Source: Entamoeba histolytica HM-1:IMSS
Taxonomy: Eukaryota; Evosea; Mastigamoebida; Endamoebidae
Reading direction: 5' to 3'
Length of the DNA stretch: 16,311 nt
NCBI RefSeq assembly: GCF_000208925.1
Contig: NW_001915085.1
Span: 1 to 16,311, forward strand
Below, one piece after another: positions 5,604-16,311 of this stretch. Numbering within the stretch: position 1 is the first letter of the stretch; each line of letters opens with the position of its first letter. The notes beneath the pieces were generated by a model. That model was given only the letters and a program-made list of their open reading frames with translations. It searched no databases and was not told the DNA's origin. The position numbers and the translations under genes were made by a program.

Positions 5604-5610
5604 AAATTCA
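5604..5610 (+). promoter_or_regulatory. initiator-like box of the Snu13 gene
   Basis: AAATTCA matches the 3' part of the Entamoeba initiator AAAAATTCA. If transcription starts here, the leader is about 30 bases long and consists almost entirely of the possible kink-turn at 5612-5636. Position is inferred from the motif only. Confidence 0.45.
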
Positions 5611-5611
5611 C

Positions 5612-5636
5612 TTGGTGAAGGAAACTAGTGATCCAA
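5612..5636 (+). promoter_or_regulatory. possible kink-turn in the Snu13 mRNA leader
   Basis: The leader RNA can fold as a kink-turn of box C/D type. UUGG (5612-5615) pairs with CCAA (5633-5636). U5616 faces U5632. The tandem sheared pairs are G5617 with A5631 and A5618 with G5630. AG (5619-5620) pairs with CU (5625-5626), closed by a GAAA tetraloop (5621-5624). The unpaired 3-base bulge is A5627, G5628, U5629, with U in the L3 position as in U4 snRNA and box C/D RNAs. Snu13, the product of this gene, binds exactly such elements. A5636 is the first base of the start codon, and the 5' splice site is at 5639. The short 2-bp capped helix is the weak point. Function in autoregulation is inferred. 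Confidence 0.55.
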
Positions 5637-6082
5637 TGGTTTGTAACAGTTTTGTTTTCTTCTGACTTCATTTTTTCTTTTAATGAAGAAAATATTTATA
5701 TGAATAGACTGATTGTAATTCTAAAATTTTTCCACTTGCAGAAAAAGAACTTCAAAACAAATTAATTGAATTTGTTCAACAAGCTCAACAAAATGGATTT
5801 GTTAAGAAAGGAGCAAATGAAGCAACCAAAGCACTTAATAGAGGAAAAGCAGATATTGTTATTATAGCTGCTGATACTAAACCAATTGAAATTGTTTTAC
5901 ATCTTCCAATTCTTTGTGAAGATAAAAATGTTCCTTATGTATTTGTTGGATCAAAAGCAGCTCTTGGAAGAGCATGTGGTGTTTCAAGAGATGTTATTGC
6001 AGTTGCAATTATTAATGATAAAGGAAAATCAGCACCATCAGTTGAAACAATGAAAGATGAAATTGAAAAGCTTTTATTCTAA
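5636..6082 (+). CDS. SNU13: Snu13/15.5K (NHP2L1), U4 snRNP and box C/D snoRNP protein
   Basis: Joining the ATG at 5636-5638 to 5708-6082 gives 125 residues, against 128 in human NHP2L1. The start MTDCNSKIFPLAEKEL parallels the human N-terminus with its PLA motif. KGANEATKALNRG, AADTKPIEIVLHLPILCEDKNVPYVFV and SKAALGRACGVSRDVIAVAI are the signature L7Ae/L30e blocks that contact kink-turn RNA. The protein nucleates the U4/U6.U5 tri-snRNP and box C/D snoRNPs in the nucleus. The first coding exon is only the start codon: a GTTTGT intron follows at once and ends at GAATAG (5707). Translation of unspliced RNA would stop after nine codons. The leader holds a possible kink-turn, suggesting feedback control. 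RPC11 follows 133 bases downstream on the same strand. Confidence 0.93.
5639..5707 (+). other. intron directly after the Snu13 start codon
   Basis: This 69-base phase-0 intron opens with GTTTGT and ends GAATAG. It was chosen over a later AG at 5741 because only the TAG at 5705-5707 gives the conserved N-terminus ending in FPLAEKEL and keeps the frame; the TAG itself is the in-frame stop bounding the second exon. Retention adds eight codons, then TGA. Confidence 0.88.
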
Positions 6083-6215: not shown

Positions 6216-6593
6216 ATGACATTCTTCTGTGCTAATTGTGGTAATTTATTGGTTGTTGAACGAGGAACTGAATTATATTTTAAATGCAATACTTGTCCTT
6301 ATAAATTTACATTTAATAAAAAAATTGTATATGAATCAGAATTAAAAAGAAAACAAATTGATGCAGTATTAGGTGAAGAACAATGGAAAAATGCTCAAAA
6401 AACTGAAAGTTTGTTATATTAATTATTTGGTATACAATTAATGATCAATATTTATTGTTTAGTTATTTGTGAAAAATGTGGACATAATTCTGCTTATTTC
6501 ATGCAAATTCAAATTCGATCAGCTGATGAACCAATGACAACCTTTTATAAATGTGCTAATTTTGATTGTGGATATCAATGGAGAGATGGATAA
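6216..6593 (+). CDS. RPC11: RNA polymerase III subunit C11 (RPC11/POLR3K)
   Basis: Joining 6216-6408 to 6463-6593 gives 107 residues, the normal length of C11 (108 in human). The N-terminal zinc ribbon has CANCGN and CNTCPY (Rpb9-like). The C-terminal TFIIS-like ribbon has CEKCGH, then CANFDCGY, with the RSADEPMTTFYKC hinge whose Asp-Glu pair is the acidic tip entering the polymerase active site. C11 promotes RNA cleavage by polymerase III and helps termination and reinitiation on tRNA and 5S genes. The start at 6216 is preferred over the in-frame ATG at 6150, which would add 22 Lys/Phe-rich residues absent from the family. The single intron separates the two ribbons. Confidence 0.94.
6409..6462 (+). 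other. intron of RPC11
   Basis: This 54-base phase-1 intron runs from GTTTGT to TTGTTTAG. Splicing joins AQKTE to IICEKCGHNSAYFMQ, restoring the second zinc ribbon. Without it the product would end after three extra residues and lack the cleavage-promoting ribbon. Confidence 0.93.
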
Positions 6594-9698: not shown

Positions 9699-12600
9699 TT
9701 ATAAAATAGCTAATAATTGTTTAACATCTTTACGAACTTCCATATCATCAATATTAATTAATTCACATAATACAAGTTGAATATTTTGATTAGTAATAAA
9801 TAATTTTGGATTATTACTATTTTTTAAATGGTATAATAAAATTTTAATAATATCAATATTTTTAAATTCAAATAATTTTAATATAAAAGGAGAATATTGT
9901 TCTGATTTAATAATTAGTGAAATACACATTGTTGTAAATAACTTTAAAATAGAATCTATTTGTTCTTTTGAAGAAGTTGAAAGAAGTCTTAATGATAAAT
10001 ATCTTTCAATATGTTTATATAATAAAGGAATAAGAAGAGTTGGACATTTTTCAATATTACAATTTATAATTGATAATATTTCATATAATGCTGAAAATGA
10101 TTTTAATAAATCATTTTGTTTTGGAATATACATATGTCTAATAATTTTATGTGCAATAAAATTATGTGGTTGTTGTGAATGTATTTTTAAACATGAAGTT
10201 GAACATATTGGAAGTCCACAAAGAGCACATTGAATCATTTCACAAGCAGGTAATAATTTATTACAATGAGAACATATGGATAATATTGAAGGTTGAATAG
10301 GGTCAGTAAAAGATGGAGTAATATTTGTTATTGATAATAATGAAGTTGTAATTTGATCATAAAAATATTCTATTAAATCAGTAAAATGAATAATAAATAA
10401 TGAAGGTTCAGAAACAAGTTTTGGAATAATTTCATTTAAAATAAAAATACCTGTTTTTTGAAGAGCTTCATTTGTTGTTAAAATTAAAAGTGTTATTAAA
10501 TTAATAACATCAGGTAATAATAATGGGTATGACTTTGATGTTTCTAATGATCTAAATGCAATAGATGTACCAATAATAGCTACCCAATCTTTTGATGTTT
10601 CATCAATACTTAGTGTAGAACTCATTATAATTTGTAATGCTCTCATTTTAATATCATCAATTAATGTAGGTTGTGTAAGTAATTTTTCATAAACAATTTG
10701 TATAACTTTTGTTGATATTTCAACATTTGTATTGAGCATTGATTTAGCAAGTGCTTTAATACATGGCATCCAAATATTAATTACATCATTATTTAATACT
10801 TTAAGGTCTTTAACATTTTCAGCAATATTTGCTAATTTTTCAACTGCATAATGAGCTGCTTTATCATTTGGACATATAGAAAACATAGATAAAGTATTAA
10901 TATAATATGGAAAATATGAATCAAAATATTCATCTTTATATTTCTCAAATTCAACTAATTTCTCAAATCCTGTCTCAACAATAATCATTTCTATATCTTC
11001 AGCTGCTGTTGATAATATTTGAAAAATATGTCTCCAATCAGAACATTTTTTTACATATGAAAGAACTAATTGTCTAACAGATAAAAGAGGGGAATCATTA
11101 ATAGTAATTAATAGCATTTCATAATATGTTTCTGTTATATTGAAATATTCTAATTCTTCTCTTTGTATTAATAAATCATAAATTGAACTAAGTATTTCTA
11201 ATGCAACTTGAGCAACTTTTGGTTGTGGATGAAGTGATATACTATTTAATATTTGAAATAAACTGGTTGATAATGAGTCATAAATATAAAATATACGATA
11301 AATATTAAAATGAATAACTGAAAGTAACATATTTAATAAAGAGATTGATGGTGTTTGTGAATTTGTCATTTCAAATGCTACATTTAACAATTGAATAATA
11401 TATGATAATAACCCAGATGGTGATAATGCTGTTCCATGAATTACTGCTAAGAATAATGTATCATCAGGACAAATAATTGTTTGATAAGAAGTTGTAGTAG
11501 TTAAATCAAATGTTTTGTATGGAATATATCTATTAAATCTAAAGTGTTTTGGAATAGAAGTAATACGATCAGTTTGGATATTTATCAAATGAACAAATAA
11601 TTTAATTGGATATTGCCATGCTTCATGAAATGAATTTCCATGAGAATAACAAAATTGTAGAAGTAATTTTAATGATGCAGACTGAGAAGTAGTAGATATT
11701 GATTCTTGTAAAGGCCAATCAGATACTAATGATAATAATTGATTTAATTCATCTTTTTCTCTACATAATGATGAAAAATAAAGTAAAGCACGTGTTGAAG
11801 AAAATGGATCTAATTCATTAATAAATAATTGTTGTAAAGCTGAAAGAATTAAAGAAAAACATCTATGAAACATATCAATTTGATCTTCAGTTGGTATTTG
11901 TTTATTTTCTTTAAATAATGGAGTTTCTTCTAGTTGATCATATAATTTCATTAAATCTGTTGTTGGTACTTTGATATTCATTTTTATTGAAAGTTCCTTA
12001 AGTTTTTGAAAATTAGATATAATAGGAGTATCAGAAATATCTCTTGAAAATTGAAGAAGTAACATACATAATTTTTTTACTGTATCAATTGAATAACTTG
12101 TTGCAACATGATATATTTCAGCAAATGTTTTAATAAATTCAGTTGTTGATTTATTATCATTTGGTAATATAAATCCATTTAATGAAATAGATAACGCATC
12201 ATAAAAATCATATCGAGAAAGATCAAGAATAGAAAAATAACCAGTTAATGCATCTTCATGTCTTGTTAAATAATATCCAATTCCATTCTTGTCTAATGTA
12301 GAATCTTTACGTAAATAATTACCAACTACTAATGGTTTTTGTGTTGGACATTTTTCTTCAATTGCTTCTTCTATCATTTTAGCTGAAGATAATAATACTG
12401 ATGGATGTATTTCTAAAGGTGGTGAAGGTGCAAATGAACGAATACATTGAACAATACCTTGAGCACAATACTTTTTAATAACATCATTTTTAAATCCATT
12501 AAGAAAACAATTAACAATTGATTTAAATACTGAACCTCCCAAAGAATCTCTGTCAAAAATTGTATAAATACAATACATTGCATTACCTGAAGATGACAAT

Positions 12601-13784
12601 GATACTAATGATTTAATTGAAACAATACTATTATTTGGGTTATTAGTTTCATTAATATAATTGTTAATAATTGTTCTACATTCACTTTTCATATGACTCC
12701 CATGTCGAATAATTAATTGAATTAATATCTGAACAGCAAGATCACTAATACTCCCTCCAATAAAACAGGTTGTTGAAAACATTTTAAGTAATTGATGTCT
12801 AATTGCATTATTTAATACATTAGGAAGGCATGAAGAAAGAAGAGAATCTGCCATTTCCATTGAAATTTCATGGTATTTTATATTACCTTTACCTCCTTTT
12901 TCTTCTAAAAGAATATATTCTTTTTTAAATTCTGTTTTAGAAAATGATGGTTGATTAAACCAATTAGTTGATGCACATTGAAGTAGTTCAAGTAACACTG
13001 CTTGTTGTATACTTTGTTTTAATGATTTATTTTCATTTTTTATTGATGTAGATGAAATACTTAAATTATTCCAAGAAGTATGACTTCTTGAAGGATATTT
13101 TTGTTGAATAAGAAATGAAGATTGAATAGAAGGAGTATTTGAATAATGAGGACTTGAAGAGAGAGTTGAATTTAGTGATGAGAAAGAAATAAGTTGATTT
13201 ATATTTAAATTAGAATTTATTGCTGGTGATGGTGATGGAGCAAATACTGGAGAAATTGATGGAGAGTTTTGTAATAAAGGAGACATACATGATGGAGAAT
13301 GTGACTCATCAATTAATGTAGCAATATAATCACGAACAAGACGTAAAGGATAAAATTGTGATGGAGTTGTTTGGTAATATGAAGATATAACATGAGCGTC
13401 AATAATAAAATGAATAGCCTTACAATGATAAGTATTTTCAATTTGAAATTTTGATGTTAAAAAAACTATTCTACAACAATTAAGAATTGACTGAATTGGT
13501 TGAGGTAGAAAAGAAGTGAAAATAGAAGATAGGAATAGTCTCATTGTTTGATTTGAAAGAAATAATGGATCAATAATTGGTAATAAAACAGTTGTAAGTT
13601 TAGTTGTCAATTTTAAACGAATGATTTGAGGAAGTAATATTTGAAACAATTGTTGTAAATTATCTGATAATGGTTTTGTTGTTAATAAACAACTTTTAAT
13701 TGATTTTATAGTAGAAAGTATGTCTTTATCTTTTATTTCTTTTGACAAATCATTCATATAAGTACACAAGATGTTTTGGTCCAT
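9699..13784 (-). CDS. BIG/Sec7-type large ArfGEF-like protein, degenerate Sec7 domain
   Basis: This single-exon gene encodes 1361 residues, mostly helical HEAT/ARM-like repeats. IYTIFDRDSLGGSVFKSIV (from 406) matches the HUS box of BIG-type Arf exchange factors (IYVNYDCD...NIF). About 490-625 aligns with Sec7: YLRKDSTLDKNGIGYYLTRHED, then LSISLNGFILPND, then LYDQLEETPLF. The family catalytic glutamate of the LPGEAQ loop is replaced: here it reads LPND (540-543), with Asp in place of Glu. The second motif (normally FAIIMLNTDLHNP-like) has also decayed, and the first Sec7 helices are not recognisable. Residues 159 to about 253 form a Ser/Pro/Asn-rich linker with many SP sites. A Cys/His cluster at 1171-1207 resembles a MYND finger. 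Probably a Golgi/endosome Arf-pathway protein, possibly non-catalytic. Confidence 0.72.
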   Translation of the reverse strand: MDQNILCTYMNDLSKEIKDKDILSTIKSIKSCLLTTKPLSDNLQQLFQILLPQIIRLKLTTKLTTVLLPIIDPLFLSNQTMRLFLSSIFTSFLPQPIQSILNCCRIVFLTSKFQIENTYHCKAIHFIIDAHVISSYYQTTPSQFYPLRLVRDYIATLIDESHSPSCMSPLLQNSPSISPVFAPSPSPAINSNLNINQLISFSSLNSTLSSSPHYSNTPSIQSSFLIQQKYPSRSHTSWNNLSISSTSIKNENKSLKQSIQQAVLLELLQCASTNWFNQPSFSKTEFKKEYILLEEKGGKGNIKYHEISMEMADSLLSSCLPNVLNNAIRHQLLKMFSTTCFIGGSISDLAVQILIQLIIRHGSHMKSECRTIINNYINETNNPNNSIVSIKSLVSLSSSGNAMYCIYTIFDRDSLGGSVFKSIVNCFLNGFKNDVIKKYCAQGIVQCIRSFAPSPPLEIHPSVLLSSAKMIEEAIEEKCPTQKPLVVGNYLRKDSTLDKNGIGYYLTRHEDALTGYFSILDLSRYDFYDALSISLNGFILPNDNKSTTEFIKTFAEIYHVATSYSIDTVKKLCMLLLQFSRDISDTPIISNFQKLKELSIKMNIKVPTTDLMKLYDQLEETPLFKENKQIPTEDQIDMFHRCFSLILSALQQLFINELDPFSSTRALLYFSSLCREKDELNQLLSLVSDWPLQESISTTSQSASLKLLLQFCYSHGNSFHEAWQYPIKLFVHLINIQTDRITSIPKHFRFNRYIPYKTFDLTTTTSYQTIICPDDTLFLAVIHGTALSPSGLLSYIIQLLNVAFEMTNSQTPSISLLNMLLSVIHFNIYRIFYIYDSLSTSLFQILNSISLHPQPKVAQVALEILSSIYDLLIQREELEYFNITETYYEMLLITINDSPLLSVRQLVLSYVKKCSDWRHIFQILSTAAEDIEMIIVETGFEKLVEFEKYKDEYFDSYFPYYINTLSMFSICPNDKAAHYAVEKLANIAENVKDLKVLNNDVINIWMPCIKALAKSMLNTNVEISTKVIQIVYEKLLTQPTLIDDIKMRALQIIMSSTLSIDETSKDWVAIIGTSIAFRSLETSKSYPLLLPDVINLITLLILTTNEALQKTGIFILNEIIPKLVSEPSLFIIHFTDLIEYFYDQITTSLLSITNITPSFTDPIQPSILSICSHCNKLLPACEMIQCALCGLPICSTSCLKIHSQQPHNFIAHKIIRHMYIPKQNDLLKSFSALYEILSIINCNIEKCPTLLIPLLYKHIERYLSLRLLSTSSKEQIDSILKLFTTMCISLIIKSEQYSPFILKLFEFKNIDIIKILLYHLKNSNNPKLFITNQNIQLVLCELINIDDMEVRKDVKQLLAIL

Positions 13785-14019: not shown

Positions 14020-16199
14020 TTATTGAGAGAATGAATGAATAAATTTTGAGAATGATTCGTTATACATTTTTTCTGCATAATGTTCTAAAATTTCTTTAAA
14101 ATCATTAAAATGAGGATTTTCTAATGATAATAAAAGTGTTTTAATAATTATTTGAAATTCTTTATAATATTGATGTTTTAATAATATTTTAAGGTATTGT
14201 AATATTAATTCAATATGAAAGAAATTAATTTCTTTTCTTGATTTTAAATAAGATATTAAAATATTAATTAATTCTTTAGTATTTTCTATTTCAAATAATT
14301 CAATTTCTTCAATTCTTTCATCTAATTTTTCTATTTGAATTTTATCATTAGCAAATGAAATTTTTGGATTATTATAAATATTATAATATTTTGAATAATA
14401 TTGAATAAGTTCATTTTTAACATCATTTGGAAGTGCATTTAAAACAGATATATCAATTTGAGATGCACTTGGTAATTCAACAAATTTATTCTTTTCATTT
14501 TGTTTTATTTTTGTATATTTTTCTTCTTCTTGTTTTGCTAAAAGAATTTGTTGAAATATTTTTGATTCTTTTATTTGAACTGGTTGAATAGAATGTACTT
14601 TACTTATTTGAATAGAAATTCCTCTTAAATCTTTTATTGGAATTTGAAATTGATTCCATAAAATAATAGCACTTTTATTAAGAATTGCTGAATTTTGAGT
14701 TTCACAAATAGTAATACTCTTAGATTGCATATTAACAATACCATGTCCTTTATATTTAATTGCTTCTCCACTTCCTTCTTTTCTTGTCATTATTTGCATA
14801 GTCATTAAAGTTCCCATAACATTAGATTTGTGTAATCGTTTTTCTACTTCACAACACATTCTAAAAATAAATTGTTTAACATCATCATCATTCTCAAATC
14901 TAATTCCCCAATTTATTGATATTCCAACACTTTTCTTTTCTTTTTTATTCTCAAATTGAGTATTATCAATTCCTTTACTCATTTCAATTAATTTAAGAGT
15001 ATTTTTCTCTCCTATTTGTTTTTCTAATACTTCTTTTGAAATTAATGAAATATCTCCACATGTATAAACCCCAATTATTTTACATTGTTCTGAAAGAGAA
15101 TAACCAAAACCTGGAAGTTCTGCTATTTTTATTGTAGAAATAAATTCTTCAATCTCCATTATTATTTCATATTCTTTTTAAATAAAAAAAAACAATTAAA
15201 ACAAACATTTGATAGTAAATAGTATATTCCATCAGGTTTTGCTTTTTTCATTGCTAGACGTGCTGTAAGAGGATTTATTCCAATTCCAAAACTTATTCCA
15301 CAATGAATTGTTTCTTTAATTTCTATTCTAACTTGTTGTAAAAAAATATCAATAGGTTCAGGAACAGATGAAATATCTATAATACATTCATCACAACTCA
15401 ATACTTCAATATTATGAAAATATTTTGTTAATATTTCATACATCTTTAATGCAACTTTTTCATATTCATCGAAGTCATATCCAACAACAATTAATTGTGG
15501 ACAAAGATTATATGCTTGTTTTAACCACATCCCATTTTTTATTCCATATTTTCTTGCTTCATAATTACAACTAGAAACATCTGCATTATTTCCACCATGT
15601 GATACAACTACGGGTTTTCCTTGTAATTCAGTGTGTTTAGAAATTGTAACAGAAGCAAAGAATGAGTCAATATCAACATGCATAATTTTAGAATAATTTG
15701 ATTTAATTCCTTCAACTTTTTCTGAAAGAAAATCTGAAAATATTGTTTTCCATAAAGAAATATGATGAAGTCTTGAACTTAAATAATATTTATCAAGAAA
15801 ATTTGGATCAGTACAATCTAAATCACTTCGTTGTTGTTGGTTCTTATTCATTTTTTGTAGACTATAATTAGTTGTTGCTTGTAATGTTCCATATTTAATA
15901 GAATCTATTATCCAATTTGGATGAACAACAATCTTTCTTTCAAATTGAATTTGATGTTGATATGATAATTGAGTTGCAACAATATGAGTAACTTCAGATG
16001 AAGAATATTTCATTAAATATTTTCCACCATTTTGAAGAATTAAAGAACGTAAAATTGATGCTGAAGGATGTGTTCTTCCAGTAATCCAAACAGCAACACC
16101 TTTAAAAATATTTCTTTTTCCATATTTCTTTCTTTGTTCATCAAATTGTTGTTGTTGTAATTTATCTTTTTTCTTAAAGTATTGTTTAAGAGTCAACAT
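14020..16199 (-). CDS. REV1: REV1, Y-family translesion DNA polymerase (dCMP transferase)
   Basis: Joining 16199-15207 to 15153-14020 gives 708 residues. Domains in order: BRCT (about 28-112, with HPNWIIDSI); the REV1 signature SRLHHISLWK (142-151), whose Arg143 and Leu144 correspond to the residues that template dCTP and push out the template base; the palm with HVDIDSFFASV (Asp176) and SCDECIIDIS (Asp270, Glu271) as metal ligands; thumb ELPGFGYSLSEQ; the little-finger domain; a ubiquitin-binding UBM at about 558-585 (LPSASQIDISVLNALPNDV); and a helical C-terminal domain (about 618-703) that in other species binds other translesion polymerases. The start at 16199 is preferred over an in-frame ATG at 16271 because an initiator-like box lies between them. 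The intron acceptor is unusual. Confidence 0.92.
15154..15206 (-). other. intron of REV1 with unusual acceptor
   Basis: The donor GTTTGT at 15206 follows KPDGIYYLLSN. The frame shifts by two, so intron length must be 2 modulo 3. The only AG that satisfies this and keeps the VDDF-like segment (IEEFISTIKIAELPGFG) ends at 15154, giving 53 bases and a GGAG acceptor instead of TAG. An alternative, donor 15202 with the TAG ending at 15123, is open but would delete that conserved segment. Confidence 0.6.
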
Positions 16200-16209
16200 C
16201 TTATAAAAT

Positions 16210-16218
16210 TGAGTTTTT
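16210..16218 (-). promoter_or_regulatory. initiator-like box of REV1
   Basis: AAAAACTCA on the minus strand matches eight of nine bases of the Entamoeba initiator AAAAATTCA. It lies 11-19 bases before the ATG at 16199, the usual leader length. The upstream ATG at 16271 would lie outside the transcript. Confidence 0.55.
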
Positions 16219-16311
16219 GATTTTGTAATAAAAATAAAATAATTTAAAAAAAAACAAAAAAACAACAACAACTAAATAACACAAAAAGAGAAAGAAGAAC
16301 TAATTAATTAA

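Follow-up and report, generated by a model that had tools for sequence, protein, structure and literature searches.

A candidate kink-turn at the leader, start codon and 5' splice site of one of two Snu13 genes in Entamoeba histolytica

The window, the whole stretch of 16,311 nucleotides of Entamoeba histolytica HM-1:IMSS that was analysed, carries on its plus strand a gene for the kink-turn (k-turn)-binding protein Snu13 that is interrupted by a short intron directly after its start codon (Table 1). Three AG ends were tested as the end of this intron, and the one at 5707 is alone in leaving an open frame; 3' splice sites at 5741 and 5747 break the frame and were rejected. Joined to exon 2, the start codon opens a full-length Snu13-like protein that begins with MTDCNSKIFPLAEKELQNKL, and retention of the intron leads to a translation stop at codon 10, after MVCNSFVFF. 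The encoded protein belongs to the L7Ae family (PF01248, E 2e-28). Its top match among solved structures is an L7Ae-family protein named L7A (2aif, E 3e-43), which is followed by yeast Snu13 (E 1e-39) and human 15.5K (E 4e-39), and alignments with Snu13 and 15.5K relatives show that the stretches KKGANEATK and ACGVSR are kept. The former corresponds to the recognition helix and the latter to loop 9, here of the eukaryotic type. The family domain, the matches to yeast and human proteins and the full-length product after splicing thus bear out the assignment of this gene to Snu13 in the preliminary description of the window. Among the best 120 of 5101 protein matches, the best that bear amoeba names are Entamoeba marina (77%) and E. 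invadens (76%), and near relatives without names are also present. Scans with the protein as query confirmed no Snu13 locus in viral_contigs and one in genome_contigs (L047, CAJWGN010000024.1). The latter is a piece with a Snu13-like product (61% identity) from a contig end in a gammaproteobacterium bin, and is probably eukaryotic contamination of this bacterial bin.

The leader of the window gene reads, as RNA and piece by piece, UUGG-U-GA-AG-GAAA-CU-AGU-GA-U-CCAA. In the k-turn numbering of PMC6298567 (which is drawn on in excerpt, as are the other papers cited here), its -1b:-1n pair is U5626:A5619. A bulge of three nucleotides is followed by tandem G·A/A·G pairs, and both helices are paired by sequence, the C helix being short. 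By sequence, the leader is thereby confirmed to hold a complete standard k-turn, and each of the parts listed in the preliminary description is found where it had been placed, including the overlap with the first base of the ATG and the gap of two bases before the 5' splice site.

Table 1. Features of the Snu13 gene and of the candidate k-turn in its leader (positions in the window)
Feature	Position	Strand	Basis or remark
Initiator-like TTCACT, presumed start A5610	5607..5612	+	5/6 positions of WWYAWW
Candidate k-turn, Snu13 gene leader	5612..5636	+	sequence; rarity
NC helix, 4 Watson-Crick pairs	TTGG 5612-5615 / CCAA 5633-5636	+	sequence
3b·3n pair	U5632·U5616	+	sequence
Sheared pair 2b·2n (2n-1n GA 5617-5618)	A5631·G5617	+	sequence
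Sheared pair 1b·1n (1b-2b GA 5630-5631)	G5630·A5618	+	sequence
C helix, 2 Watson-Crick pairs	AG 5619-5620 / CT 5625-5626	+	sequence
GAAA loop	5621-5624	+	closes C helix
Bulge AGU	5627-5629	+	3 nt, then tandem G·A pairs
Start codon ATG, end of exon 1	5636..5638	+	sole splice model with open frame; A within NC helix
Intron, 69 bases, GTTTGT...TAG	5639..5707	+	frame test of AG ends
Intron stretch complementary to leader 5617-5625	5654..5662	+	RNAfold of 5610-5707
Exon 2 of Snu13	5708..6082	+	125 residues in total including first Met; PF01248

The k-turn lies directly before and extends into the ATG, and its presence in the transcript depends on a start that we infer. The E. histolytica initiator is described as WWYAWW, transcript starts are said to peak 10 bases upstream of the start codon, and Entamoeba leaders had earlier been reported to measure about 5-20 bases (PMC7677554). 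A start at A5610 would give a leader of 26 bases, which is longer than usual. This predicted site is one of ten between 5555 and 5635 that score 5 or 6 against the initiator, and five of the other nine score 6. A5635 is likewise a match at five of six positions, and a start there would leave out the k-turn.

The element is rare in its strict form. A descriptor of four Watson-Crick pairs, a U·U pair, two Watson-Crick pairs, a GNRA loop and a uridine at L3, modelled on the leader site itself and therefore flattering to it, has the leader site as its single match in 282,843 bp of genome (both strands, 22% G+C). If any 3b·3n pair is allowed, the same 282,843 bp hold 7 matches in the polarity of the leader, the leader included, and 5 in the polarity of U4. 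Expected rates were taken from a first-order simulation of 57 Mb. For the polarity of the leader they are 0.018 per Mb per strand for the strict form (a value that rests on one event in 57 Mb), 1.1 for U·U with any loop of 3-8, 9.3 for any 3b·3n pair and 68 for the loosest class. In the same four classes, matches in the U4 polarity contribute a further 0.12, 11.7, 11.7 and 76. The loosest class, which admits G-U pairs, any L3, any 3b·3n pair and both polarities, is thus expected about 144 times per Mb per strand. With about ten start positions, our arithmetic puts the chance per leader between about 1e-6 (strict, post hoc) and about 1e-3 (loosest). In the leaders of 121 other open reading frames of at least 100 aa, a comparable k-turn with a 4-bp outer helix is found in none and one with a 3-bp outer helix in a single case.

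The core pattern STGANNGNRANNNNTGATS is found at 9 places in the whole genome, as against 9 for the reversed control, and is thus not enriched. Four of the other eight places were fetched: none has a 4-bp outer helix, and a 2-bp inner helix is found in one (L048), with one G-U pair. The remaining four, two of which share one sequence, were assessed from the matched letters alone, which make a 2-bp inner helix impossible in three and a closing G/C pair impossible in one (C367). At the level of the letters, the leader site turns out to be the sole full k-turn among these nine genome-wide matches. A scan of L7Ae-family loci from -120 to +60 around the first ATG of each open frame found no leader k-turn in the 11 that were counted; the twelfth, the window's own gene (L008), was left out as it enters this set from an internal ATG, and one of the 11 (L018) has k-turn matches that lie within its coding region. 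An Rfam family at gathering score and a tRNA were also considered and rejected (0 matches each). The 24 bases before the ATG have 42% G+C, a value reached by 4 of 68 leaders, whose mean is 21%.

When the free leader RNA is folded by nearest-neighbour rules, the k-turn does not come out as the best structure. For a 29-base leader, the best fold is a weak hairpin (-1.7, as against -1.3 for the k-turn pairing); a rival UCACU/AGUGA hairpin (-5.9 to -6.1) becomes available if transcription starts further upstream, and in longer fragments other pairings are favoured over the k-turn. These values come from RNAfold, which does not model the kinked k-turn fold. An unusually stable hairpin was considered and rejected, as five fragments gave z-scores of -0.23 to 0.84 against shuffles. 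The leader stretch GAAGGAAAC can also pair with GUUUUCUUC of the intron over the 5' splice site, which excludes the k-turn. Because the fold of 5610-5707 that contains this helix is no better than shuffles (z -0.23), the intron stretch counts as no more than a potential competitor of the k-turn in the pre-mRNA. Further into the intron, 5666-5672 and 5682-5688 form a hairpin of 7 bp.

A second Snu13 gene is present in the genome (G000:C352:61139-61522, in L002, L006 and L009). It is intronless, and its product differs from that of the window copy at 5 of 125 residues. Over 379 compared bases, the last of which lies past the stop, the two copies differ at 36, and 29 of these differences fall at third positions, an excess that points to the maintenance of both proteins. 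AAATTC immediately precedes the ATG of the second copy, whereas in the window copy a G+C-rich leader separates a similar AAATTCA from the ATG, and the intron begins right after the ATG. Between -120 and +60, the second copy (L009) has no k-turn, even under a descriptor that tolerates G-U pairs and an outer helix of 3 bp. The second copy does without the element, showing that it is not needed for Snu13 as such. The presence of two copies would allow the selective control of one, and since the second lacks both element and intron, any feedback would be limited to one of the two.

Recognition by yeast Snu13 is reported to depend on the two G·A pairs together with an intact -1 pair in stem I, and archaeal L7Ae to be less strict and to bind k-loops as well (PMC8413462). 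All three features required by the yeast protein are present in the leader, as A5618·G5630, G5617·A5631 and A5619-U5626. Nevertheless, snR51-kl2 from yeast, which has all three features but in which stem I is short, bound Snu13 only weakly (PMC8413462), and by analogy the 2-bp C helix of the leader would count against binding and calls for caution. The leader has neither 3b=C, 3n=G nor -1b:-1n=C:G, and by the rules given in PMC6298567 it should therefore not kink on ions alone, which is the state wanted in a switch. U:A at -1b:-1n is absent from the pairs named as studied in the excerpted text of that paper.

A control site of this kind has precedents. The l7ae leader switch of archaea is established and the L30 switch of yeast is described (PMC5539422, PMC6298567), so that the parallels drawn in the preliminary description are found in print. 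Like the archaeal leaders, the Entamoeba leader would place a k-turn with a short C helix ahead of the protein's own coding sequence, beside the region where translation starts; a loop on the C helix is drawn in 3 of 6 of the archaeal examples (PMC6298567), and their sequence is likewise predicted not to fold on ions alone. In contrast to the GAU bulge of all six (PMC6298567), the bulge is AGU here, and the protein is eukaryotic Snu13 rather than L7Ae. Where the archaeal complex has a Shine-Dalgarno site to cover, the Entamoeba leader offers a 5' splice site as well as the start codon. It further differs in its GAAA-closed C helix and in the existence of a second gene copy that is free of the element. 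With yeast RPL30 it shares a eukaryotic protein of the L7Ae superfamily, a site presumed to lie on its own transcript and a position adjoining an early 5' splice site, and in yeast both splicing and translation are reported as regulated (PMC6298567, PMC5539422). The RPL30 motif includes the 5' splice site, whereas the Entamoeba motif ends two bases short of it; the protein is a different one, and the likeness is drawn from published descriptions of the yeast case.

The element had also been taken for the one that Snu13 binds in U4 and in C/D snoRNAs, and this identification stands in part: the order of its parts agrees with C'/D', whereas the layout in U4 has the opposite polarity. As in the C'/D' motif and k-loop, a D-like GUGA is followed by a loop and then by a C-like GUGAU, the loop lies on the side of stem I, and a U·U pair adjoins the G·A pairs (PMC8413462). 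Differences are that stem I of the leader is a 2-bp helix with a GAAA loop, that the next pair of stem II is a G-C in the other direction and that there is no guide RNA context. The U4 snRNA of the same genome (L020, G000:C283:48624-48753, 76.7 bits) has, when read by eye, a k-turn with an AAU bulge, G·A pairs, a 2-bp CU/AG helix and a GCAA loop, and folding prediction gives it an internal loop of 5+2 besides a 2-bp helix. G·A pairs, a bulge ending in U and a 2-bp helix with a GNRA loop are thus common to both RNAs. On our reading of the sequences, the loop closes the NC helix in U4 but the C helix in the leader, and with the polarity reversed in this way, the element in the leader is no copy of the U4 k-turn. 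U3 is found twice in the genome, at 36.8 and 35.8 bits.

The reading that we favour, with a probability of about 0.62, is that the leader is a cis-acting site for the gene's own Snu13 and mediates negative feedback on one of the two copies. Snu13 that exceeds its U4 and C/D snoRNA targets would capture the leader as a k-turn. Since no part of the motif extends beyond exon 1, both pre-mRNA and mRNA are possible targets. On the spliced mRNA, a complex about two bases from the presumed cap and holding the A of the ATG would block the loading of ribosomes; on the pre-mRNA it would crowd the 5' splice site, from which it is separated by two bases, so that the intron would tend to stay and translation would end early, at codon 10. 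Of the two steps, ribosome loading would be blocked, and splicing probably as well. E. histolytica is described as being without U1 snRNA, recognition of its 5' splice site being ascribed tentatively to U1C and U1-70k (PMC13292270), and a neighbouring RNP would thus hinder proteins and not a U1 duplex. The net effect would be negative feedback on the window copy, which the intronless copy would escape.

This reading, in which we infer both the binding of Snu13 and the two blocks, is plausible but not proven, and the interpretation given in the preliminary description is partly supported. That a gene encoding a k-turn-binding protein should itself carry a complete k-turn where leader, start codon and splice site meet argues for feedback, as do, by analogy, the repressive precedents of archaeal L7Ae and yeast L30; our confidence is limited by the 2-bp C helix, by a start that is only predicted and by a DNA comparison confined to one genome. 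More tentatively, and at somewhat less than even odds, the k-turn between cap and splice site may be a Snu13-sensing switch for both splicing and translation, with the second copy as an unregulated baseline. It might then represent the archaeal l7ae leader switch in a core protein of the U4 and C/D particles of a eukaryote, in a lineage described as being without U1 snRNA, a suggestion we hold just as tentatively. Feedback through a leader k-turn is known; the case proposed here differs in the use of Snu13 instead of L7Ae or L30, the eukaryotic host (as against archaea), the AGU bulge, the GAAA-closed C helix and the setting of two copies. The preliminary description knew of no report of Snu13 feedback in Entamoeba, and in agreement with this, none of a eukaryotic Snu13 switch or an Entamoeba leader switch is found among the matches listed from the CC-licensed PMC literature; self-control of Snu13 is not reported in the excerpted text of PMC9895063. 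If the switch is real, the archaeal self-control of a C/D core protein would exist in a eukaryote too, or would have arisen there anew, and an RNA of 25 bases would set how much is made of a protein common to splicing and snoRNPs, for which the element-free second copy would provide a built-in control.

Other explanations are conceivable for the same anatomy. A short, G+C-rich leader could follow the k-turn rules by chance and not be bound in the cell, which we regard as rather unlikely: the strict form is found nowhere else in the 282,843 bp and sits in the leader of a gene for a k-turn-binding protein, with the U·U pair, the uridine at L3 and the GNRA loop also in place. Yet this leader k-turn was picked by eye, loosely defined k-turn-like strings are frequent and a 3-bp form is seen in one of 121 leaders, the z-scores of folding are ordinary, and a Snu13 copy without the element exists, all of which speak for chance.

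The likeness to a k-turn might also be the by-product of a signal at the level of DNA or sequence, such as a splicing enhancer rich in purines or a promoter motif downstream of the start. For E. histolytica starts, a downstream motif GAASAA is described along with an enrichment of C/G at +25 (PMC7677554), GAAGGA in the leader matches five of the six positions of this motif, and, as noted above, a few other leaders are equally G+C-rich. Such a signal leaves unexplained why two matched helices should flank a G·A/G·A arrangement, and we consider it very unlikely. It is most unlikely, in our estimation, that Snu13 binds the leader and promotes expression, for example by aiding the choice of the splice site, as the precedents in print repress (PMC6298567, PMC5539422) and the hold on the A of the ATG favours repression; the anatomy of the site would fit promotion as well, and in an organism described without U1 snRNA (PMC13292270) a neighbouring RNP could be of help.

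Several other genes were noticed in the window. The next gene downstream of Snu13, at 6216-6593, resembles one for a small subunit of RNA polymerase that carries two zinc ribbons: 6216-6422 holds a ribbon of RPB9 type, and another CxxC..CxxxxC stretch extends to 6593; the two parts are probably joined by a short intron, and we presume the gene to be RPC11-like. On the minus strand, two adjacent open reading frames at 14020-16271, one with BRCT and IMS polymerase domains and the other with IMS thumb and C-terminal domains, are probably one REV1-like gene split by an intron. An open reading frame of 1361 aa at 9699-13784, also on the minus strand, has a Sec7 domain at residues 468-620.
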